From IMG/VR virus record IMGVR_UViG_3300036945_000759, positions 1 through 26,943 of that record: DNA of 26,943 bases. The stretch is one strand, 5' to 3'. This document shows, piece after piece, positions 128 through 26,943 of the stretch. Every line of letters begins with the position of its first letter. Positions within the stretch are counted from its first letter, which is position 1. Made by a program: the position numbers and the translations under genes. The notes beneath the pieces are model-generated. The model had not been told where the DNA came from. It made no database searches and saw only the letters and a program-made list of their open reading frames with translations. Source of the stretch: a virus.

Positions 128-2572
128 AATTTAGTAAAAGCTTTTGACAACCCTAAACAAGCAATTATTAATTTAGGAGAGAGTATAAAAGCAAATTTAA
201 TCAATAGATTTGTAGCTTTGAAAGAGATACTTGTTTCTATAACCACAGGAGATTTTAGTAAGTTGTCAGATTCTATTGTAAAAGCAAGCACAGGTATAGA
301 TGGCTTAGTTACTAAAACTGAAGCGTTTGCAAAGGCTACTAAAGAAGCTTATTTGATTGGAGAACAAATAGCTAAACAAAAGATAAAGATTGAGCTATTA
401 GAAATCAATAACAACAAGTTATCAAAAGAAAGTTTAAGAGACAGAGAGCGTTTAAGAAATATACAGGATAACGAATTTAAAACTACTACTCAAAAATTAA
501 ATGCTGCAAAAGAAATTATTAAGCTTGCTGATAGTGAATTAAAACGTCAAGAGGAATTATACAAAGTTAAGATAGAAACAGCTAAATTAGAATCAAAGGC
601 TAATGGTAATAAAAGAGAAGATTTAAAAGCTATTTCTGAATTAGAAGCTGAGTTAGCTGAAAAACAAGAAGAAAATGCAGGAGTTCGTAGTGAACAGGTG
701 GCGTTTGAATCAGCTTTAAGAAAATCTGTCATAGAAGAAAGTTTAGCTTTAGAAAAGCAATCAAGAGACATAAGAGCGGCTTTAATAGAAGATGAATATA
801 CTAAATTGAAAGTTATTGCTGAAAACGCAAAGAAAGATGCTGAAATTGAGGTTAAAAAATCTATCGCTACTGAAGAAAGCAAAAGAGATGCTCGATTAGC
901 TATTAATCAACAATATCAAAAGAGTTTAAAAGATATAGAAGAAATGGCTCAAAATGAAAGAAGTAATTTTGAAAAAGCTATGAGGGATAGACAGATAACT
1001 GAGTTGGATAACGAATTAGAAAGAAATATTAGAAATATTCAGGCTAAATTAGAAGATGATAAAGTAGCTGCTGAAAAAACAATAAAAGATAAACAAGTTT
1101 TATTGGAAACTATTTCTTTACTTGAAAGTAATGCACAAGAAGATATAACTAATTTAACTTTAAAAGCTGAAAAAGAAAAAGCTGAGAAAATAGCTGTTTT
1201 ACAAAAAGAATTATTGAACACTCGAAGTCAGATTTTAATAGAGAATTTAGAATATAACAATGGTTTGATTTTAAAAGCAACCGAACTTACTGAAAAGGAA
1301 AGATTTGATTTAATAAAAGCTAATGAGGAAGCAATCTTTAATGAAAGAACCCGTTTAGCAAAAGAAAATCAACAATCAGAATTGGACAACCTGAATAAGC
1401 TTTATGAAAGTAAATTGATTTCTACTGAAGAATATAATTTGAAATCACAAATACTTTTAGAGAAAGGGAATCAAGAATTAAGCAAAATTCAAAAAGAATA
1501 TGATGAAAAAAGTATTACTCAATCAAAAGAAACATCTCAACAAATAATTGATAATCAAGTTAATCAACTTGATTCTTTAAAAGGTTTATTTACTAATTTG
1601 ACTAATTTATCAAATGCTCTTTTTGAAGCACAGACTTCCGTTTTTAGAAGTAATATAGCTTCTATTGATGAAGAGTTAGAAAGTATAAGAGAAAAGAAAT
1701 CACTTTTAGATGAAGAACTTAATGCTATTGATGAAAGATATAAAGTATCACAAGAGAATATAAGTTCTTTAGAAGAAGATTTAGCAAAATCAACAGGTGG
1801 TCTATCTTTTGAAATACAGGCTCAATTAGATAAAGAAAGAGAAAAACAAGACAATTTATCTAAATCACGCAAAGACGCTGTAAAAGAAATTAATAGATTA
1901 AAAGCTGCTGAAAAATTGGCTACTGAGGAGAAAGTAAAACAAGGTAAAAAGATTGAAGAGGCACAAAAGAAACAAGCTTTAGTTGCTAATTTATTAACTT
2001 TAGCTCAAACAGGGTTAGCTATTGCTTCTATTGCTGCTTCTTCAGCCAAACAGGATTTTACTTTTGGTATAGCCACAGTAGCTTCTATTGTAGCTGTTGG
2101 TGCTGCTTTAATCACTAACATATTCGCTACAAAGGCTTCATTAGAAGGTTTCGCAGAAGGCGGTTTAGTGCCTTTGTCAGGGCAAAAAATAAACCCTTCT
2201 GATGGTATTCAAAGTAATTTTAGCAATGGTGATAATATGATAGCTTCAGTAAAAACAGGTGAAGTTATATTAAATGAAAGACAACAACAATTATTAGGTG
2301 GTGAGGCTACTTTCAGTAAATTAGGTTTAAAAGGTTTTGCAGATGGTGGACTTGTAACAACTAAAAATACTTCTTCTTCTTCTTCTATTCCTTCTGTAAA
2401 CAATATTGAAACAGTTGAGGTAGATACAAATTCAAACATTTTAGCACTAATTCAAAATCAAAACACAACCATTTTAGCACTTGCTTCAAGACCTATTTAT
2501 ACAAGTTTGATAGACATTGATTCAGCTACTGAAACTTTTAAAACCCAACAAAGTAGGATAACTGTTATTTAA
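1..2572 (+). CDS. Tail tape-measure protein, C-terminal part (gene begins at 26308)
   Basis: The frame is open from position 2 and is continuous, through the circular junction, with the start codon at 26308. The joined protein is 1026 aa, of which residues 171-1026 lie here. An apparent start at 218 is only an internal Met (residue 243). Residues about 260-825 are a long, charged, heptad-like coiled coil rich in E, K, L and I. A hydrophobic Ala/Ile-rich stretch follows (about 829-880). The Gly-rich end contains FAEGGLVP and a GEVILNERQ motif of a kind often seen near the C-terminus of Bacteroidota phage tape-measure proteins. The protein would set tail length and thread through the tail tube. 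At the usual 0.15 nm per residue, the tail would be about 150 nm (inference). The next gene starts 61 nt downstream. Confidence 0.85.
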   Translation, partial: ALVGLIAYFKTSQEAADRFAKVFGGLNQVFNFFIKSVAFIGENLVKAFDNPKQAIINLGESIKANLINRFVALKEILVSITTGDFSKLSDSIVKASTGIDGLVTKTEAFAKATKEAYLIGEQIAKQKIKIELLEINNNKLSKESLRDRERLRNIQDNEFKTTTQKLNAAKEIIKLADSELKRQEELYKVKIETAKLESKANGNKREDLKAISELEAELAEKQEENAGVRSEQVAFESALRKSVIEESLALEKQSRDIRAALIEDEYTKLKVIAENAKKDAEIEVKKSIATEESKRDARLAINQQYQKSLKDIEEMAQNERSNFEKAMRDRQITELDNELERNIRNIQAKLEDDKVAAEKTIKDKQVLLETISLLESNAQEDITNLTLKAEKEKAEKIAVLQKELLNTRSQILIENLEYNNGLILKATELTEKERFDLIKANEEAIFNERTRLAKENQQSELDNLNKLYESKLISTEEYNLKSQILLEKGNQELSKIQKEYDEKSITQSKETSQQIIDNQVNQLDSLKGLFTNLTNLSNALFEAQTSVFRSNIASIDEELESIREKKSLLDEELNAIDERYKVSQENISSLEEDLAKSTGGLSFEIQAQLDKEREKQDNLSKSRKDAVKEINRLKAAEKLATEEKVKQGKKIEEAQKKQALVANLLTLAQTGLAIASIAASSAKQDFTFGIATVASIVAVGAALITNIFATKASLEGFAEGGLVPLSGQKINPSDGIQSNFSNGDNMIASVKTGEVILNERQQQLLGGEATFSKLGLKGFADGGLVTTKNTSSSSSIPSVNNIETVEVDTNSNILALIQNQNTTILALASRPIYTSLIDIDSATETFKTQQSRITVI

Positions 2573-2606
2573 TAATTATTATTCTCTTTTACTTTTAGTT
2601 TTATAT

Positions 2607-2613
2607 CTATATA
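2607..2613 (+). promoter_or_regulatory. CTATATA box before the fibre gene
   Basis: CTATATA lies 20 nt before the start at 2634. It is one of seven such boxes before genes and a possible phage promoter element. Confidence 0.4.
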
Positions 2614-2633
2614 TTTAAAAAATAAAAAATCGT

Positions 2634-4796
2634 ATGGCTTTTAATTTAACAACAATACCAATAAACAATGACACTACTGTTGGAGAAGCTTTCACAATAG
2701 TGAGGGACAACCTTGACCAACAAATTCAAAATGTTGAACTAATAGGTTCTGATTTAACTTTCACCACACACGATGGGACTGATTTAGAAGTTAGTTTAAC
2801 TTCTTTAGCGGCAGGTGATTTAGATGCTACTTTAGAAAGAGGAAACACTACTGATAATGATATAATCATGCTAAACGCTGTTAATGAGTTAAAATTGGCA
2901 AAAGAGGTTATATTAATAAAAGATTTAATTGGTGAAAGAAAAACATCTATTGACGGAAGAGGGATCAAATTCTTTAATTTTCAAGATGATTTTATCAGTT
3001 TATCTTCAGGAGGTTATGCTCCTATTGGTGGATGTGAGGTTCTTTTACCAACAAGAACAGGTACTTTAGCCTTAATAGAAGATGTGAACGCATTGACGTT
3101 AGATAGTGTAACCACAGCAGGGAATACAACTATTAACAGAATAATTGTTGGTCAGATATTTATAAATCAACAGGTTGCGGATGAGCCACCTTTTTTAATA
3201 AGTATGTTGGACACAAATTCAAGACCAATTATATATATCAGTGATGTCTCAAACTCCAACTCTCTCACACTTTCTTCTGAATTATTGAGTTCAGGACGAG
3301 TGCAAAATTTCCAAGATAAAACAGGAACAATAGCTTTATTAGAAGATATTGATTTTACTTTTGAAAATGGTATAACTTTTGAAAACCCTGTTGTGAAATT
3401 AGGAGGAGATATAACTGAGAATACTACTTTTAATGCTTTTGGAGCATTTGATGTGAATTTCTTTTTATATGCTAATAGTGTTTTTGAAGTGGGAGTAACA
3501 AACCCTAATACTGACAATGTTCTTCAATTAAGATTAGGCTTTGATACTGTCAAGCTTGGTGTAGAGACTATTTCAGGGTTTGTTCAAACACTTCTTGATA
3601 ACGGTACTGTAAGTCTTAAATCGGCTTCCTTTAACAATTCTGCAAGTGCTGAAATACTTGTAGGACAAACTTATGTAACTGAGAATTATTCTGATACTCT
3701 TGGAGAATTTATTGGTTCTTGGTTTAAAAACTCTTCTGAAACAACCATGAGTGTTAAAAATAACACAGAGACAAAAGAAATGCGTATTGATGTTAGCCTT
3801 ATCACAGACGATTACAAACTATCAAATAGGGACGAAAATGGCACTGCTTTTTTAGAATTAAAACCTTTAAATAGTAATATAACTTCAGATGGTGCAATAG
3901 CTTTAAAAAATGCTGACAATAGTAGATCAATAGAATTATCAGATACAAATGGTATATTACTTAAAAATAATAAATCAAATCAGAAAATAAGGTTAGAAGG
4001 TGGTAATGGTTCTGATATAGAAATATATTCAAATGACATTGTTTTTTTACAAAACTTGAACGCAAATGTAACTTTAAATAGTTCAGGTTTATTGTTGAGT
4101 AGTACAGTTAAATCAACAGTATCTTCTAATACTACAAAAATAGATACAACTCCTACCGAAATTGTTGTATTTTCAGGTAGTGCAGGATTCAATGGTGTAA
4201 AATACTTTGCTGATTATAGTGCTGATTATACAAATAGAAGCTTAGTAGATAAAGGTTTTATAGATACTCAATTAACTTCTTATCAAACTTTAGCACAGAA
4301 AGGTGTTGTAAATGGATACGCCTCTCTTGGAGCAGATGGAAAACACGTAGCTTCAGAAATACCTGTTAGAGCTTATGGTGGTTTTACTTGGACAGGAGTT
4401 CTTTTCAATCAGAGCATTACCACGGCAAACGTTTTTGAAAAGGCAGGACAAGCCTCAGTGGTTATGGGTTCATTGAATTTATTTACTCACAGTACAGGAA
4501 GATTGACTTATACAGGTTCTGTTACAAAACAATTTAAAATACAAGGTTCTTGTAATATTACCTGCACTTCTACTTCTCAAACTATTTCGATCAGGATAGC
4601 TATAAACGGCACTACTTTAATAGGAAGTGAAAACATAACAGTTGTTTCTGCAACAGGAAGATGGGAAGGATTGACACCACAGATAATAACCAATTTATCT
4701 ACTAATGATTTCATTGAGATATACGTAACTAATAGCTCGAACGGTGGTGCAGTTAATCAGAGGACTATGAATTTAATAATTGAGCAAATAGATTAA
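2634..4796 (+). CDS. Tail fibre / receptor-binding protein
   Basis: This 720-aa protein is rich in beta-forming residues. Two copies of a short repeat, TGTLALIEDV (about residue 145) and TGTIALLEDI (about residue 230), match a motif frequent in fibre proteins. The segment GVVNGYASLGADGKH near residue 560 resembles the linker found before C-terminal domains of Bacteroidota phage fibres. The last ~140 residues look like a separate beta-sandwich domain suited to receptor binding. The gene follows the tape-measure gene, as expected for a distal tail protein, and precedes a strong terminator at 4853-4882. The ATG at 2634 follows an A-rich leader with a CTATATA box. No enzymatic motif was seen. The assignment rests on repeats, composition and position. 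Confidence 0.65.
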   Translation: MAFNLTTIPINNDTTVGEAFTIVRDNLDQQIQNVELIGSDLTFTTHDGTDLEVSLTSLAAGDLDATLERGNTTDNDIIMLNAVNELKLAKEVILIKDLIGERKTSIDGRGIKFFNFQDDFISLSSGGYAPIGGCEVLLPTRTGTLALIEDVNALTLDSVTTAGNTTINRIIVGQIFINQQVADEPPFLISMLDTNSRPIIYISDVSNSNSLTLSSELLSSGRVQNFQDKTGTIALLEDIDFTFENGITFENPVVKLGGDITENTTFNAFGAFDVNFFLYANSVFEVGVTNPNTDNVLQLRLGFDTVKLGVETISGFVQTLLDNGTVSLKSASFNNSASAEILVGQTYVTENYSDTLGEFIGSWFKNSSETTMSVKNNTETKEMRIDVSLITDDYKLSNRDENGTAFLELKPLNSNITSDGAIALKNADNSRSIELSDTNGILLKNNKSNQKIRLEGGNGSDIEIYSNDIVFLQNLNANVTLNSSGLLLSSTVKSTVSSNTTKIDTTPTEIVVFSGSAGFNGVKYFADYSADYTNRSLVDKGFIDTQLTSYQTLAQKGVVNGYASLGADGKHVASEIPVRAYGGFTWTGVLFNQSITTANVFEKAGQASVVMGSLNLFTHSTGRLTYTGSVTKQFKIQGSCNITCTSTSQTISIRIAINGTTLIGSENITVVSATGRWEGLTPQIITNLSTNDFIEIYVTNSSNGGAVNQRTMNLIIEQID

Positions 4797-10328: not shown

Positions 10329-12137
10329 ATGGAAAATTTATTAAACAAAAAACCTCTTAAAGCAGGTAAGTATCTAACAGAAATACCAACAAATGCTCGT
10401 ATTGCTAAAAAATATACAGGTATTGGTGGAAGCACAGCAGAAATTACTGCAAAGAGAAATAGTGTAATATTAATGCCTTCATTACCCGCAGTGATCTCAA
10501 AAGGTTCAGAAAAGTCAAGTCTTTACAACGTAGATGATATTCATTCAGTTTATGGTGGTAAAAATGATATTGATGATATAATAGCTTATATAAACTCAGA
10601 AGTAGAGTTTAAAAAGATTGTTATGACTATGAGCAGAAAAAGTATTAATGTTTTAATCGAATTAACAAAAATATTTCCTGAGCTTTTTAATTACAATTTA
10701 TTATTTGACGAAATTGACAGCGTTCCTGAAGATGCAACATGGAGATCAGATTTAGCTTTATGTTATGATTTAATTTCTATTTGGAAATTTGGTATTAAGA
10801 CCAATATAGAAGAAGCAAAGAAAAAGAAATTATGGTTGAATCAGGTTGGCTCAATATCAGTTATCTCAGCAACAGGTATGAACAATCTTCATTTACCCTC
10901 TATTAAAAATTTACAACTTTATGAAGTTGAAACCCAAGCAGATAGACTTAATTTCCCTGTAACCATTATTGAAACAGAAAGTGATGTTGAAGGAACAGCA
11001 GCTAAATACATAGCTAAATCAGATTCAGAAAAAACTTTTATATTCTACAATAACGTAGAAGGTTCTTTAAGATTAATAAATCACTTAGAGGAAAACAATA
11101 GCAAAATATATTGTGGTGACTCTTCAAAACATAAAGCAGGTATTTTTAGCAGTGATAACATAAACAACTTTGGTAAATATAACTTTTCAACTAAAGCTTA
11201 TTTCAGAGCAGTAGACTTCAATGCTTCAGGAGAAGTATTTATTATTTCAGATACTGATAGTCTTCACGCTCAATTGACAATCGAAGATATTATTCAATGT
11301 GCAGGTAGACTTAGACAAAACATTATTAAAATTACTATTATTATGAACACAAAAACAAACACTCACAAACTAAAAGATGTTTCTACTGAAACTTTATTAG
11401 AAATGTTTAAAGACTATGCGAACCAAGAACTTGGAGCTATAAAAACACTTGATTTATTGGGTGAACTCACAGAAAAGAAAATCAATGATTGTGAGGCTGT
11501 AAGAAGAAATATAAATGGAGAATTTGTTATAAATTATGGTTGGATTGAAAACAAAGTTAAAACAATCAAACAAGATAATCTTTTACATTCTGATACAAAA
11601 CTTATGAGTGAAGCATTAAACAATTACGGTTTTAAATCAACAGTAGTTAAAGAAGATTCAACAGTTGAAAAACTAAAAAGAGTTGAAAAAACAGATTGGA
11701 ATGTTAGATTAGAAAAAATGTGCAAACTATTTGAAAAAGAAGGTCAAGAAGAATATAATTTTATGATTAGAAGTTTGGATAACGATAATACACTTATTTG
11801 GAAAGGTTTAAAACATTTAGGTGTTGAAGTTACTATGAATACAACTTCTAAATCAGAACTTGTCGCTCTTGTTGAAGAGAAAGAAACAGAAAAATGTAAA
11901 TCATCAATTGGTATCGCTCTTTCAAAAAGATTCTCTAAAGGTGGTGAGTTAGAATCAAAGAAAGCAAAGGTTATACTTCAAGAATTGTATGACACGTTTG
12001 GTTTTAAATCGACAGCAAAAGCAACAAGTTTTAATCTTTACTTTAATGAATCTAAAACTTTTGACAAAAAAGTAAATGGGGCAGTGGTTAAATTTACAAA
12101 ATTCTCTTTACCAAAATATTCAGTATCAGTTCAGTAA
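10329..12137 (+). CDS. Superfamily 2 helicase-like protein with degenerate Walker A
   Basis: This is a 602-aa protein. Residues 30-36, TGIGGST, occupy the motif I (Walker A) position, but the invariant Lys is replaced by Gly34. Motif II is DEID (127-130), motif III is SAT (180-182), a motif V-like segment is around 288-297, and motif VI is QCAGRLRQ (323-330). These are the marks of a DEAD/DEAH-like superfamily 2 ATPase. About 260 C-terminal residues match nothing I recognise. It is the first gene after the control region and the only replication-type enzyme seen, so a role in phage DNA replication or origin opening is plausible. From memory, related phage and mobile-element proteins in Bacteroidota share a lysine-less P-loop. 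Whether it hydrolyses ATP is uncertain. Confidence 0.6.
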   Translation: MENLLNKKPLKAGKYLTEIPTNARIAKKYTGIGGSTAEITAKRNSVILMPSLPAVISKGSEKSSLYNVDDIHSVYGGKNDIDDIIAYINSEVEFKKIVMTMSRKSINVLIELTKIFPELFNYNLLFDEIDSVPEDATWRSDLALCYDLISIWKFGIKTNIEEAKKKKLWLNQVGSISVISATGMNNLHLPSIKNLQLYEVETQADRLNFPVTIIETESDVEGTAAKYIAKSDSEKTFIFYNNVEGSLRLINHLEENNSKIYCGDSSKHKAGIFSSDNINNFGKYNFSTKAYFRAVDFNASGEVFIISDTDSLHAQLTIEDIIQCAGRLRQNIIKITIIMNTKTNTHKLKDVSTETLLEMFKDYANQELGAIKTLDLLGELTEKKINDCEAVRRNINGEFVINYGWIENKVKTIKQDNLLHSDTKLMSEALNNYGFKSTVVKEDSTVEKLKRVEKTDWNVRLEKMCKLFEKEGQEEYNFMIRSLDNDNTLIWKGLKHLGVEVTMNTTSKSELVALVEEKETEKCKSSIGIALSKRFSKGGELESKKAKVILQELYDTFGFKSTAKATSFNLYFNESKTFDKKVNGAVVKFTKFSLPKYSVSVQ

Positions 12138-12555: not shown

Positions 12556-13248
12556 ATGGATAAAGAATTAACTTTAGAAGATTTAACAGGGGAAAAATAC
12601 AAAACAGGAGGAGAGTTAAACAAGATAGCTGAGAAATATAATTCAGTATCACCAAAAAGCACAGTACCTATTATAAAACTTTATGATTATCATAATCCTA
12701 AATCATATAAGGAATGTGTCGATTTAATCTCCTCACACACCGAAAAAGGAAGTGATAGTGATTGTCCATGTGGTTGCAGATCAAAAGGTTCTTTAAAAGA
12801 TTTCGCAATGAAATTGTGGGAAAAAGTACAAAAAGAACAAGAAGTGAAATCTGCAGCTACTACTAATTCTAAATTATTTTCTTTTAGTTTTCAAGATTGT
12901 ATGGATTTTATAATTGGTTTATTTGTTAAAAACTCTCTTATAGGATTGTCAATGGAACAAAAACTTATTGATAAACTTAATAAAAATGATAAAGGTAAAA
13001 CATTTGTTAGAGCAGATGCCAATCTTGATGGTAAGTATAGTGTGGATATATTGATGTATGAGAATGGTGAATTGAAAAAAGGTGTTCAGGTTAAACCTAC
13101 AAGTTATGATAGAACTCCTAATGAAATAAAAATCAGAAATGAAAAAAACAATACAGCTTTTAAAGAAGACTTCAAATTGGATCACGATGTAACTTATGTT
13201 TATTATGATTTCAAAACGTTAAAATTTACAAATCCAAAATACAACTAA
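12556..13248 (+). CDS. PD-(D/E)XK nuclease candidate
   Basis: This is a 230-aa protein. The C-terminal half has a PD-(D/E)XK-like core: Glu134 in a helix (SMEQKLIDKL), Asp164 in YSVDILMY, and Gln178-Val179-Lys180 in GVQVKPTSY. From memory, the VRADAN...QVKP pattern is close to MjaI-type restriction endonucleases and related phage nucleases. The N-terminal half has a separate feature, a Cys cluster CPCGC (residues 70-74) in a hydrophilic loop, which could bind metal. It could act in recombination, host DNA attack or genome end processing. It is followed after 2 nt by a membrane-protein gene. The fold call is reasonable; the precise role is not known. Confidence 0.45.
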   Translation: MDKELTLEDLTGEKYKTGGELNKIAEKYNSVSPKSTVPIIKLYDYHNPKSYKECVDLISSHTEKGSDSDCPCGCRSKGSLKDFAMKLWEKVQKEQEVKSAATTNSKLFSFSFQDCMDFIIGLFVKNSLIGLSMEQKLIDKLNKNDKGKTFVRADANLDGKYSVDILMYENGELKKGVQVKPTSYDRTPNEIKIRNEKNNTAFKEDFKLDHDVTYVYYDFKTLKFTNPKYN

Positions 13249-14657: not shown

Positions 14658-15488
14658 ATGTCAAATAAAGATAATAAAAAAGTATATCAAAGAGTTAAGA
14701 CTTCAGTCGATCCTACAAAACTAAGAACTAATACTGTTTTTGAACATATAAAATATAAGGTAGGTGAAGAATTTAGAGATGCTTATTTAGATCCTACAAA
14801 TCTATCAGTTGAAGAAACATTATCAATAAAAGATAGTATTATAGAGCAACTTGATAAGATAAAAGAGGAAATAGAAAATTATATTGAATATCCTGATGAG
14901 AAAGAGGTAATGCGGTTGGTTTATGAGTATTTAGGTAATTATACTATTGAAAAGAAAGTCTTTAAAAACTATGATTACGAGAATTTAAAAAAGTTTATTG
15001 AAGAACCTGAAAAGTTTGATATATCTGATAGATATTTAGAAGTTTGTGTTTTTTACACTTCAACTTACAATATTAGAAGATCAATGAGAGCTGTTTTCAA
15101 TAGTGCTGATATAAAAAGAGATTTTTGTAATAACCCTTGTGTAGTTATGACTATCAATTATCTTCAAAAACGTAGGGATCATTTATTAAAAATAACAAAA
15201 GAGAAACTATTTAAAAGACTTTTAGATGCTGATTCGTTGTTAGAAGCCGCACAAAAAGAATCAGAAGACGCTCCTTTGAATTTAAAAGCTGTTGAGATAC
15301 GATTAAAAATAACAGATAAAATGTATGATTTGTTAGGTGCTATTGACAGAGGTAGTATATTAGCTAAAGAAGGTATAAATATCAATATACTCAAATTAGA
15401 AAACAATAAAGCCGAATCAAAGGAAGAAGACATAGAAACTGAAATAGAAAAGGAAGATAACCACGAGGATGATTTAGATGGATATTGA
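14658..15488 (+). CDS. terS: Terminase small subunit candidate
   Basis: This is a 276-aa, largely helical protein. The middle region (residues about 135-190) contains STYNIRRSMRAVFNSADIKR followed by a Pro and a long basic helix. This is the arrangement of a small-terminase helix-turn-helix and its oligomerisation helices. The C-terminal ~35 residues are acidic and likely disordered (contacts with the large subunit are typical there). It overlaps the large-subunit gene by 11 nt, the usual neighbour. The small subunit would recognise phage DNA and regulate the packaging motor. The call rests mainly on position and architecture. Confidence 0.5.
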   Translation: MSNKDNKKVYQRVKTSVDPTKLRTNTVFEHIKYKVGEEFRDAYLDPTNLSVEETLSIKDSIIEQLDKIKEEIENYIEYPDEKEVMRLVYEYLGNYTIEKKVFKNYDYENLKKFIEEPEKFDISDRYLEVCVFYTSTYNIRRSMRAVFNSADIKRDFCNNPCVVMTINYLQKRRDHLLKITKEKLFKRLLDADSLLEAAQKESEDAPLNLKAVEIRLKITDKMYDLLGAIDRGSILAKEGININILKLENNKAESKEEDIETEIEKEDNHEDDLDGY

Positions 15489-17856
15489 TGTAAAGATAAC
15501 TAATAAGCAACAAATAGCTCTTGATTACCTTTTAAATAGTAAAGAGGTTTCAACAGTTATATTTGGTGGTGCAGCAGGTGGTGGTAAAGCACAACCATTA
15601 TGGTCAAAAGTATTAACACCGAAAGGTTGGGTAAACATAGGAGATGTGAAAGTAGGTGATGAAATTATAGCTCCTAATAATATTGTACGTAAAGTAAATG
15701 GGGTATTTCCACAGGGTAAAAAAGTTATTTATAAAATTACAATGGCAGATGACAGAAAAACTTATGCTTGTGGAGAACACTTATGGCTTTCTAAGACTAT
15801 TAAAAATGGTAAAGAGAAAATTAGAACTACTTTTGAACTTATAGAACTTTTAAAATCAAATAAATCTATTTCTTTACCTTTGATTGATAAGATTGAGTAT
15901 GGTGATAAACATGAAAACAAATTTAACCCTTATCTTATAGGTAGTTTGTTAGGTGATGGTGGTTTAACAAATACTGTTACTTTTACGACATCTGATGAAG
16001 ATAGTATTTTAGAAATTCAATCAGAGTTACCTGAAGATTTTATTATAAGACCTATTGATGGCAAATACGCTTACAGAGTTTGTTCAAAACAAAGAACTTT
16101 TAATAAAAAAGGTTTTCCCACAAACGAGTTGAAAAACTATTTAGTAGAATTGGGTTTGTTTGGTAAGAAATCAGAACATAAATTTATACCGAAAGTATTT
16201 TTAGAAGCTGATTTTGATACTAAAATTTCTATCATTCAAGGACTGATGGACACAGATGGGACAGTAGATACAAGAGGGTATTTAAGTTTTTGTAATAAAT
16301 CGAAACAATTAACTGAGGATTTACAATATCTAATAAGGAGTATTGGTGGTAAAGCTACGTTAAAAGAAATTAATAAAAGTTGGGTATATAAAGATAAAAA
16401 GAAAACGGGAACATATTATCAATTGTATATCAATACTAAATTTAACAAAGATTTATTCAGACTTAAAAGAAAGAAAGAAAGATGCCAAGGCGAGTATAAT
16501 GGTGGAAGAGGTGAATTATCAAATAGAATAAAATCTATTGAAGAATATAGTTTTGAAGAAGCACAGTGTATATCAATTGATTCACCTGATCATTTATACA
16601 TAACTGATGATTTTATAGTTACTCATAATTCTTTTTTAGGTTGTTTATGGTTAGTAATTTCAGCTTTAAAATATCCTAAAACAAGATGGTTATTAGGTAG
16701 AAGCGAATTGAGTATATTAAAGAAATCAACATTGGTTACTCTTTTAGATTTATTATCAAAACTATCTTTAAAAAGAGACGAACATTGGACTATGTTTGCT
16801 GATAGTCATATTGACTTTAAAAATGGTTCAAGGATTTTATTTATGGATTTAAAATATATGCCTTCTGATCCGAATTATGATAGTTTAGGTTCTTTAGAAA
16901 TATCAGGAGCTTTTATTGAAGAAATACCACAGGTTACTGAAAGATGTTATGAGTTGGTAATCAGTAGGATAAGATACAAATTAGATGAGTATGGTTTAAC
17001 ACCTAAACTATTCGGAAGTTGTAATCCTAATGCAGGTTGGGGTTTTACACGATTTTATTTACCTTTTAAAAAGAATACTTTACCAAGTAATACTGTTTTT
17101 ATTCCCGCTTTAACCTCAGATAATCCTTATGTTTCAAAACATTACATTGATTCTTTGAGTAAATTAAATGACAATGATAGAGAAAGATTATTATTAGGTA
17201 ATTGGGAATTTGAAGATGATGCACCGAGACTTTTTAATAAAACATGGTTGGACAATGTAGGCACAGAGCCAAATGGATTAAATAAAACAAAATATATGAC
17301 TGTTGATGTAGCACGATTTGGTGAAGATGATAGCATTCTTTGTGTTTGGGAAGATAATTGTGTAATTGATTTATTACAATTTAATAAATTAGATATACCG
17401 ACAGTAGCTGACAAAGTATTGACAATCATGCAGAAGTATAATATATTAGCAAAACATATTTTAATTGATGAAGCAGGAGTAGGTGGTGGTGTATTAGATA
17501 TATTGCATAGAAAAGGTTGTAAGGTTATAGGTTTTATAGGAGCTTCTTCACCATTAAGAAATAGTAATTTTGCTAATTTGAGACAGGAGTGTTACTTCAC
17601 TTTAGTAGATAGTAATATTTCAATATCAGACAAAGTGCGTAAAATGACTTATGAAAAAGGTAAAAACAAATCTACTTTATGGGAGGCTATTTTTCAAGAT
17701 TTATACTCTATTAAAAGGAAGATAACCGAAGATGATAAACCAAGACTTATCAGTAAATCAATTATAAAAACAGACATAGGAAGATCACCTGATTTAGCTG
17801 ATGTTATTTCAATGAGAGAATACTTTAATTTAAAACCACGTTACGGATTAGGATAA
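15478..17856 (+). CDS. terL: Terminase large subunit containing an intein
   Basis: This is a 792-aa precursor. The Walker A motif GGAAGGGK (residues 30-37) is split from its Ser385 by a 347-aa intein (residues 38-384). After splicing the protein would be 445 aa, a normal length for a phage packaging ATPase-nuclease. Downstream are a Walker B region AFIEEIP with Glu481/Glu482 and the RNase H-like nuclease residues Asp610 (VDVARFGEDD), Asp664 (LIDEAGVGGG) and Asp772 or Asp775 (DLADVISM). The enzyme pumps DNA into the prohead through the portal and cuts it. Both ATPase and nuclease motifs look intact, so activity should depend on splicing. The start overlaps the small-subunit gene by 11 nt. Confidence 0.9.
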   Translation: MDIDVKITNKQQIALDYLLNSKEVSTVIFGGAAGGGKAQPLWSKVLTPKGWVNIGDVKVGDEIIAPNNIVRKVNGVFPQGKKVIYKITMADDRKTYACGEHLWLSKTIKNGKEKIRTTFELIELLKSNKSISLPLIDKIEYGDKHENKFNPYLIGSLLGDGGLTNTVTFTTSDEDSILEIQSELPEDFIIRPIDGKYAYRVCSKQRTFNKKGFPTNELKNYLVELGLFGKKSEHKFIPKVFLEADFDTKISIIQGLMDTDGTVDTRGYLSFCNKSKQLTEDLQYLIRSIGGKATLKEINKSWVYKDKKKTGTYYQLYINTKFNKDLFRLKRKKERCQGEYNGGRGELSNRIKSIEEYSFEEAQCISIDSPDHLYITDDFIVTHNSFLGCLWLVISALKYPKTRWLLGRSELSILKKSTLVTLLDLLSKLSLKRDEHWTMFADSHIDFKNGSRILFMDLKYMPSDPNYDSLGSLEISGAFIEEIPQVTERCYELVISRIRYKLDEYGLTPKLFGSCNPNAGWGFTRFYLPFKKNTLPSNTVFIPALTSDNPYVSKHYIDSLSKLNDNDRERLLLGNWEFEDDAPRLFNKTWLDNVGTEPNGLNKTKYMTVDVARFGEDDSILCVWEDNCVIDLLQFNKLDIPTVADKVLTIMQKYNILAKHILIDEAGVGGGVLDILHRKGCKVIGFIGASSPLRNSNFANLRQECYFTLVDSNISISDKVRKMTYEKGKNKSTLWEAIFQDLYSIKRKITEDDKPRLISKSIIKTDIGRSPDLADVISMREYFNLKPRYGLG
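15589..16629 (+). mobile_element. Class 3-type intein with LAGLIDADG homing endonuclease
   Basis: The insert is 347 codons in frame, within the terminase Walker A motif. Block A begins with Ala rather than Cys or Ser and reads AQPLWSKVLTPKGW. The C-terminal junction is VTHN followed by Ser. The Trp/Cys/Thr triad of class 3 inteins is present: Trp66 in block B (GEHLWL), Cys327 at block F position 4 (AQCISI), and Thr345 just before the terminal His346-Asn347 (intein numbering). Two LAGLIDADG motifs, YLIGSLLGDGG (precursor Asp160) and IIQGLMDTDGT (Asp260), indicate a probably active homing endonuclease. Its target would be the intein-free Walker A coding sequence in related phages. Confidence 0.9.
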
Positions 17857-17867
17857 ATAAATAAATT

Positions 17868-18628
17868 ATGACTAAAATAAAAAAAGATGGGTTATCAATA
17901 GGAGATTGGTTGCTTATACAAAATACTACTGAAGAATTAGATATTATCAGTATTGTCATGGGTGTTGAAAAGAAAGATTTACTTATTAAAAGTGTTGAAG
18001 ATTATTTAGCTTGTAGGACTTACACAGATAATGTTTTAAAAAGTATCATGGGAACAAAACCTGATAACCATTTTGAAATAAATGGAGAACCTTATATTGT
18101 TTTAGAAACTTATAGAGACATGAATGTTTCTGATTGGCTTGATGTGGAGTCTTTAATAAAGACTGAGAAGGGGTTTAATTTAAGCTACAAGCTCTTTATT
18201 TTATTATCACGTAAGAATGTCAAAGGTTTTTATAAAGCCTCTGTAAGCGCAGAAGAATACGATTACAGAGAGAAAGAATGGTTGAATCTGCCTGTTGAAT
18301 ATTTATTACAAACTAATAGTTTTTTTTTGCAAAAATTGATAATATTAGAAAAGATTGGTCAGTCATATACCCTGTTACAAAACCTGTTAACAAATCAAAA
18401 TCAACAAACGAACATAACAAACAATCTCCGTCAGGGTTTAAAAAACTATCAGACAAATATGGATTCTCGTGGATTTTATGGCAAGTTGCACAACAATCTA
18501 TTAAAGAGTTTAACGAACTTAAATCTATGGCTATCGAGGAAGCATTTGTTCTTATTAGTATGTTTATCGAAGAGAAAAAGCTTATTGAAATCAATTCAAA
18601 ACAACAAGAGTTGAAACAAATTAAATAA
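17868..18628 (+). CDS. Tail-assembly-chaperone-like protein made by -1 frameshift
   Basis: The ATG frame runs to a stop at 18612-18614 (248 aa). However, after residue 153 its composition turns into Leu/Asn/Lys-rich, non-protein-like sequence. In the -1 frame, the same DNA encodes ~100 residues that look like a true domain (for example DKYGFSWILWQVAQQ and SMAIEEAFVLISMFIEEKK) and ends at TAA 18626-18628. The switch point is a nine-T run (18320-18328) read AGT TTT TTT TTG, which contains the canonical U_UUU_UUG heptamer. The frameshifted product would be 253 aa. N-terminal pattern (EINGEPYIVLETYRDMNVSD) and two-part design resemble tail assembly chaperones such as lambda G/GT. It lies 11 nt after the terminase gene. 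Confidence 0.55.
18320..18329 (+). promoter_or_regulatory. Probable -1 ribosomal frameshift site
   Basis: Nine T's followed by G give U_UUU_UUU and U_UUU_UUG in the zero frame, both ideal X_XXY_YYZ slippery heptamers. A slip of one base joins the 153-residue N-terminal part to the protein-like -1 frame. No obvious Shine-Dalgarno stimulator lies upstream. A one-base deletion in the contig would look the same. Confidence 0.55.
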
Positions 18629-18629
18629 A

Positions 18630-18751
18630 ATGGTAAATATGAATAAAAATAATAATCTGTCAAAGGATAAAAAGTAGCAGACTTTTTTTATGGTGATTTG
18701 GTTAGAGTACCTTATAATGAAGGTGATTTAGTAATGGAGAAAAAAATATAA
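18630..18751 (+). pseudogene. Possible small ORF interrupted by a frameshift
   Basis: ATG 18630 gives 15 codons ending at TAG 18675-18677. In the -1 frame, from about 18674, the text reads VADFFYGDLVRVPYNEGDLV and ends at TAA 18749-18751. It looks protein-like but has no start. Joining the two at the run of five A's (18669-18673) would give about 40 aa. The same spot forms an AAAAAGT/ACTTTTT hairpin, so the region may instead be a weak terminator. Low confidence. Confidence 0.25.
18669..18689 (+). terminator. Weak A/T hairpin with T-run, possible terminator
   Basis: AAAAAGT (18669-18675) pairs with ACTTTTT (18681-18687) around loop AGCAG, and T's continue to 18689. The stem has only one strong G-C pair, so termination would be weak. 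It lies between the frameshift gene and a CTATATA box. Confidence 0.35.
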
Positions 18752-26307: not shown

Positions 26308-26943
26308 ATGGAACAAAAAGTATTTTCGATAAAAGTAAACGGTGTCAAAGAGTTTAAAAGCTTAAATGATATTGTGAAAACAACTGCTTCAAATCTAACA
26401 GACATGAAAGAGAAGCAATTAGCTTTAAATGAGGCTTTAAAAGATTCAAGTTTGTCTGTTGAAGAAGTTAAAAAAGTTAATAAAGAGCTTAATATTTTAG
26501 ATAAAACTGTTACTGACTTAGGTAAGACCTCGGTAGAAACTAAAGATTCTTTTAAAGGTGTTAAACAAGCGTTTGACGGAGTATCAAAGTCTTCTGTTGG
26601 TCTTTTACAAACTTTTGCAGGCACTTCTTCTGAAGGTTCAAAACTATCCTCTACGATAGAAGGTATGGTAGCTGTTTATACGCAATTCGGTGGTACAGTA
26701 AAAACCTTAAAAGGTTCACTTGTTTCTACTTTTGAAAATAGTAGTTCTGCTGCACAAAAGTTTGGTAACATAACTAAAATAGCCATAGCTTCAACAGGGA
26801 TAGGACTTCTATTAGTTGCTTTAGTAGGTTTAATAGCTTATTTCAAAACCTCACAGGAGGCAGCGGACAGGTTTGCAAAAGTATTTGGTGGATTAAATCA
26901 AGTATTTAATTTCTTTATTAAAAGTGTTGCGTTTATTGGTGAA
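26308..26943 (+). CDS. Tail tape-measure protein, N-terminal part (runs off the window end)
   Basis: The ATG at 26308 opens a frame with no stop before the window end. It joins in phase with position 2 through the 127-base overlap. The N-terminus begins MEQKVFSIKVNG and has helical, charged segments. A hydrophobic segment near residues 157-178 (around STGIGLLLVALVGLIAYF) resembles the membrane-active segments of tape-measure proteins. The start is supported by a 35-nt gap after the previous gene that carries a CTATATA box 17 nt upstream. The full product is 1026 aa. Its position after the two tube-like genes and before the fibre gene fits the assignment. Confidence 0.85.
   Translation, partial: MEQKVFSIKVNGVKEFKSLNDIVKTTASNLTDMKEKQLALNEALKDSSLSVEEVKKVNKELNILDKTVTDLGKTSVETKDSFKGVKQAFDGVSKSSVGLLQTFAGTSSEGSKLSSTIEGMVAVYTQFGGTVKTLKGSLVSTFENSSSAAQKFGNITKIAIASTGIGLLLVALVGLIAYFKTSQEAADRFAKVFGGLNQVFNFFIKSVAFIGE
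26817..26943. repeat. Terminal direct repeat, right copy (circular contig overlap)
   Basis: This is the exact copy of 1-127. Everything from 26817 onward duplicates the start of the window and should be counted once. See the left copy. Confidence 0.95.

Follow-up and report, generated by a model that had tools for sequence, protein, structure and literature searches.

Class 3 inteins in the large terminase subunit (TerL) of mycobacteriophages have already been described (Kelley et al. 2016, PMC5050341), and in that study mycobacteriophage TerL inteins, at insertion sites other than the one considered here, were spliced and two of them cut intein-free DNA. The published signature of the class consists of Trp at B:12, Cys at F:4, Thr at G:5 and Ser/Thr at +1 (PMC5222942, PMC5050341), and the class 3 splicing mechanism has been characterised (PMC5222942, PMC7664689). 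A survey from 2020 counted 1,701 class 3 inteins, 82.5% of which had LAGLIDADG motifs (PMC7891396). A phage origin of class 3 inteins is claimed in passages of papers that cite Tori and Perler 2011.

The window analysed here is the whole 26,943-nucleotide stretch of the IMG/VR virus record IMGVR_UViG_3300036945_000759. We read one of its genes as a phage TerL with a class 3, LAGLIDADG-bearing intein in its P-loop, between the Lys and the Ser of the Walker A motif, and assign this reading a probability of about 0.94. The features are collected in Table 1.

Table 1. Features of the intein-bearing TerL gene, with positions in the window and the basis of each assignment.
Feature	Position	Strand	Basis
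N-extein of TerL, 37 aa	15478..15588	+	Ends in Walker A GGAAGGGK; intein-free relatives are continuous through GGxAGGGK-S/T
Complete class 3 intein, 347 aa	15589..16629	+	Residues, relatives and predicted fold
Splicing domain, N-terminal part, residues 1-67	15589..15789	+	Ala1, block A, block B with His64 (B:10) and Trp66 (B:12); HINT fold in the model
LAGLIDADG homing endonuclease domain, about residues 114-293	15928..16467	+	Motif 1 D123, K198, motif 2 D223; Pfam, profile alignment and fold
Splicing domain, C-terminal part, residues 312-347	16522..16629	+	Block F Cys327 (F:4); block G VTHN with Thr345 (G:5), His346 and Asn347
C-extein of TerL	16630..17856	+	Starts at Ser+1 (the Walker A Ser); Terminase_3; alignment with five other TerL

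The large terminase ORF (15478-17856, plus strand) is open throughout its 792 codons, and the insert is a stop-free run of 347 codons that starts with AQPL and ends with VTHN. The junctions read VIFGGAAGGGK / AQPLWS...IVTHN / SFLGCLWL, so that both the coordinates and the position between Lys and Ser of GGAAGGGK/S given in a preliminary description of this DNA are as stated there. When the flanks are joined they yield VIFGGAAGGGKSFLGCLWL, a normal TerL sequence of the intein-free kind; in DNA the joined intein-free site is GGTGGTGGTAAA followed, across the insertion point, by TCT. Removal of the insert would leave a protein of 445 aa, a length similar to that of the Flavobacterium phage 11b TerL (432 aa). 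Residues 1-37 and 385-792 of the precursor constitute the terminase, with a match to Pfam Terminase_3 at residues 391-569 (E 2.6e-9). The C-terminal part also matches PHROG terminase families and aligns over its full length with the TerL of Flavobacterium phage 11b (42% identity), Cellulophaga phage phi10:1 (40%) and Bacteroides phage Versailles (35%). Motifs of the C-extein such as AFIEE, VDVARFGED and SPDLAD are conserved, and judging from the Terminase_3 match and the alignment with intein-free TerL the ATPase and nuclease motifs are intact outside the insert. The locus comes from one metagenomic record, as might be expected if the insert were a chimera made in assembly, or else an insertion domain of the ordinary, lineage-specific kind. 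We give this explanation next to no weight: the frame is kept on both sides, every splice-junction residue is present, and an intein 40-43% identical occupies the same K/S site in an independent record (L001, IMGVR_UViG_3300006879_000085), with further cases in L019, L022 and others.

The site without an intein is well represented. Single-protein scans of IMG/VR with the intein or the C-extein returned one locus each, and profile scans were therefore needed. The TerL relatives are the top 80, ranked by how similar they are to the window C-extein, from a profile scan of IMG/VR; its patterns were placed in the C-extein only, so that the scan selected neither for nor against inteins. GGxAGGGK-S/T is uninterrupted in 76 of these 80 relatives and the P-loop is odd or altered in the remaining four; neither the window insert nor an intein block G ending was found among the best 80. 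Since the motif is uninterrupted in 76 relatives and none of the 80 carries the insert, the most natural reading of these alignments is that the insertion is derived and that its empty site is known precisely. One TerL relative (L137, around 3001) has GGGE-S in place of GGGK-S in its Walker A motif, by mutation or error. The exact joined 35-nt site had no match in IMG/VR and a near-identical intein-free allele was not found there, which leaves the homing target undocumented in a close relative.

As to the splicing domain, the first residue of the insert is Ala, i.e. not a Cys, Ser or Thr nucleophile, and the +1 residue is the Ser of Walker A. Alignments to Mycobacterium class 3 DnaB inteins, by phmmer and by profile, put W66 and H64 on W67 and H65 of the M. 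smegmatis DnaB class 3 intein (6bs8), and C327 on the cysteine of its CVEVD sequence in block F. W66 and H64 also line up with their counterparts in all relatives. The preliminary description had made its class 3 call depend on Cys327 lying at F:4; the alignment places it on the block F Cys, which is invariant in each of the three sets compared (14, 38 and 74 inteins). Trp66, Cys327, Thr345, His346 and Asn347 are all invariant in the sets of 14 phage and 38 viral inteins. C327 is likewise invariant in all 74 inteins from bacterial genomes; these loci were chosen by a pattern requiring H-x-W and a THN end, so that for those residues conservation in this set was built in by the selection, while Cys327 and Ala1 are unaffected. 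In Klebsiella JD001 TerL, a distant relative, the block F Cys and the block B Trp are both missing, and the triad is thus not forced by homology alone. The diagnostic residues (Ala1, His64, Trp66, Cys327, Thr345, His346-Asn347 and Ser+1) are all present, with Trp66, Cys327 and Thr345 at the positions originally given, and each of the sequence criteria applied identifies the insert as a class 3 intein.

Ala1 does not by itself distinguish class 2 from class 3, and inteins with the Trp-Cys-Thr (WCT) triad could in principle use either route (PMC5222942). Ser+1 might then attack the N-terminal junction directly, with Cys327 dispensable. We consider this highly improbable, given the complete triad together with Ser/Thr+1, the invariance of C327 in all aligned relatives, and the need for Cys F:4 in all three WCT mini-inteins tested in that same work.

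An AlphaFold2 model of the intein, made with the 38-sequence alignment, has a pLDDT of 94.3 and a pTM of 0.92. In VIA-align it matches PI-SceI over its whole length (Z 27.6, rmsd 3.2, 322 residues), and its splicing domain matches the class 3 M. smegmatis DnaB intein (6bs8; Z 20.2, rmsd 1.5, 123 residues). The predicted structure accordingly has the HINT fold of an intein.

Relatives of the window intein are widespread. In tblastn searches they were found in 769 of 50,697 phage records, far beyond chance, and 726 of the 769 cover at least 80% of the insert. The link between class 3 inteins and phages given in the preliminary description holds up. A strictly defined P-loop GK/S or GK/T junction is present in 76 of the 94 inteins compared, in diverse ATPases, and most of the 74 bacterial-genome inteins likewise lie at a P-loop Lys/Ser or Lys/Thr junction. 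Two loci drew attention in passing. L055 has, around 2501-3526, a class 3 type intein with a C-extein that begins SGKT, inserted earlier in Walker A than the usual Lys/Thr. In Salmonella phage SA002 (L010, 1558-4148) a helicase is annotated as two genes, and the split falls where an unrecognised class 3 intein begins.

In the intein tree the TerL inteins cluster, requiring 3 changes compared with 9.6 in shuffled labels (0 of 500 shuffles as low). In the extein tree the intein-bearing TerL do not form one clade (AU p 0.0005 for five of them), and the TerL of L022, with an intein, is sister to that of Bacteroides phage Versailles, without one; branches are long and placement is weak in both trees, and the identity of the exact sister groups is accordingly uncertain. 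The distribution of the intein is sporadic relative to the terminase tree, a pattern compatible with horizontal gain, with loss, or with both, chiefly within TerL. One possible account, which we put forward only tentatively, is that a single class 3 lineage has colonised P-loop NTPases that are unrelated to one another, in phages as well as in bacteria (TerL, SF2/SNF2 and DnaB-type helicases, and other AAA-type proteins). Its endonuclease would tolerate variation in the Walker A-coding sequence, which would make P-loop codons a common landing site, and within TerL one main lineage would have reached a 27 kb phage. Composition carries no signature of recent transfer when the intein is compared with the surrounding gene: GC is 28.6% in the intein vs 29.6% in the extein, and GC3 16.1 vs 16.4%. 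With values so nearly equal, nothing points to the intein having lately come from a genome of different composition.

The preliminary description had also reported a two-motif LAGLIDADG endonuclease with acidic residues, and both motifs prove to be real: LIGSLLGDGG (with D123) and IQGLMDTDGT (with D223) lie in one chain, and Pfam LAGLIDADG_3 (PF14528) covers the second (E 3e-10). In the model the domain matches the folds of PI-SceI and I-DmoI. By profile alignment D123, K198 and D223 correspond to D218, K301 and D326 of PI-SceI, which we take to be the catalytic residues of that enzyme. Because these counterparts are kept, the endonuclease is probably active. On the other hand, the missing near-identical empty allele, a composition matching that of the host gene, as expected after long residence, and the long branch of the window intein in the intein tree (1.01) would all suit a splicing-competent intein with a dead endonuclease, i.e. 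an inherited passenger that has lost homing. This we hold to be unlikely, albeit less so than the other alternatives weighed in this work, since decay would be expected to lose catalytic residues or delete the domain; D123, D223 and K198 are retained here, and the domain is modelled with high confidence and without truncation.

If the window intein is an active class 3 element, the 792-aa precursor is not expected to bind ATP before the intein is removed. Cys327, aided by His64 and Thr345, would attack the Lys-Ala1 bond, the acyl group would be transferred to Ser+1, Asn347 would cyclise, and an O-to-N shift would ligate Lys to Ser, restoring the 445-aa TerL. The excised 347-aa protein would keep its endonuclease, with the joined P-loop DNA of intein-free TerL alleles as the target, and repair of the cut allele would copy the intein in. 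The splicing chemistry, DNA cleavage, homing and the dependence of packaging on splicing we infer from characterised relatives. Packaging dependence and the ability to home are well-founded inferences, because the insert separates Lys from Ser within Walker A and the catalytic Asp and Lys residues are kept; with the two Walker A residues apart in the precursor, ATP binding, and hence packaging, should need splicing.

The Walker A position, by tying TerL activity to splicing, also raises the question of a conditional intein that gates packaging, a redox or other cue acting via Cys327 so that TerL becomes active only when conditions allow. A mycobacterial class 3 DnaB intein has been proposed to sense oxidative stress (PMC6195587). 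No sign of regulation was seen in the window sequence, however; most class 3 inteins bear an endonuclease, and such inteins have been suggested to be constitutive splicers and mobile elements (PMC7891396). Moreover, the mycobacteriophage TerL inteins tested spliced readily (PMC5050341), and 76 of the best 80 TerL relatives do without an intein. We therefore regard gating as very unlikely and retain the reading of a mobile class 3 intein.

An exact 127-nt direct repeat at the ends of the record (1-127 and 26817-26943) is consistent with a circular assembly of 26,816 bp, and a tape-measure-like gene spans the circle junction. The intein takes up about 3.9% of this 26.8 kb circle, and the earlier remark that it is a large cargo for so small a phage was fair. 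The genome is smaller than that of every complete carrier in 60 sampled records; the carriers among these records have at least 42 kb when one 24-kb partial genome is left out. From its TerL and capsid relatives the phage is assigned, with moderate confidence, to a Bacteroidota host. The major capsid protein gave no match in a scan of IMG/VR, and among phages only Cellulophaga phage phi46:1 matched it (31.5%); the TerL of that phage has 421 aa and is without an intein. A portal search in five contigs with intein-bearing TerL found no portal; the contigs are fragments, and the result is thus uninformative. Elsewhere in the window, 10329-12137 encodes a 602-aa protein that by eye is helicase-like, with a degenerate P-loop (GIGGST) and no Pfam or PHROG match, and the protein encoded at 12556-13248 weakly matches the MjaI restriction endonuclease family (E 1.6e-4, just below the Pfam cut-off). 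In the ORF at 17868-18614 a T run near 18320-18329 may mark a frameshift or sequencing error, and in the region 18315-18630 the reading frame changes character beyond that run.

The novelty implied in the preliminary description was overstated, since class 3 inteins in phage TerL are known (PMC5050341), including one at the P-loop Lys/Thr in mycobacteriophage Dusk. The window intein leaves the understanding of intein mechanism or origin unchanged. It adds to the known P-loop TerL class 3 inteins a case in a Bacteroidota-type TerL lineage and a 26.8 kb genome, and with a full WCT triad, an intact endonuclease and dozens of empty-site relatives it is an unusually clean case for asking whether packaging waits on splicing.

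The Dusk TerL resembles that of the window in being a phage TerL with class 3 residues at the P-loop site. The mycobacteriophage TerL inteins differ in their sequence (about 27% identity), in their Actinobacteria phage terminases and in having Thr+1. The P-loop class 3 inteins of jumbo phages (helicases of Proteus phage 10, Salmonella SA002, Xanthomonas LucasX and PhiPA3; TerL of Klebsiella N1M2) align over the full length at 36-41% identity and share the GK/T junction, the class 3 residues, with Leu replacing Ala1 in Proteus phage 10, and both LAGLIDADG motifs; unlike the window intein, they mostly reside in other host ATPases and in phages of 200-300 kb. The Mch and Msm DnaB1 class 3 mini-inteins (6rix, 6riy, 6bs8) have the same splicing domain fold and catalytic residues but no endonuclease domain. 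PI-SceI, the yeast VMA1 intein, shares the Hint plus LAGLIDADG architecture and the positions of the catalytic Asp and Lys; it is longer, sits in a eukaryotic host protein, and is a class 1 intein (Cys1). The TerL intein of L001, with 346 aa, agrees with that of the window in the K/S Walker A site, in A1, W, C, T, HN and S+1, and in its LAGLIDADG domain, whereas its TerL belongs to another branch, with 30% identity.
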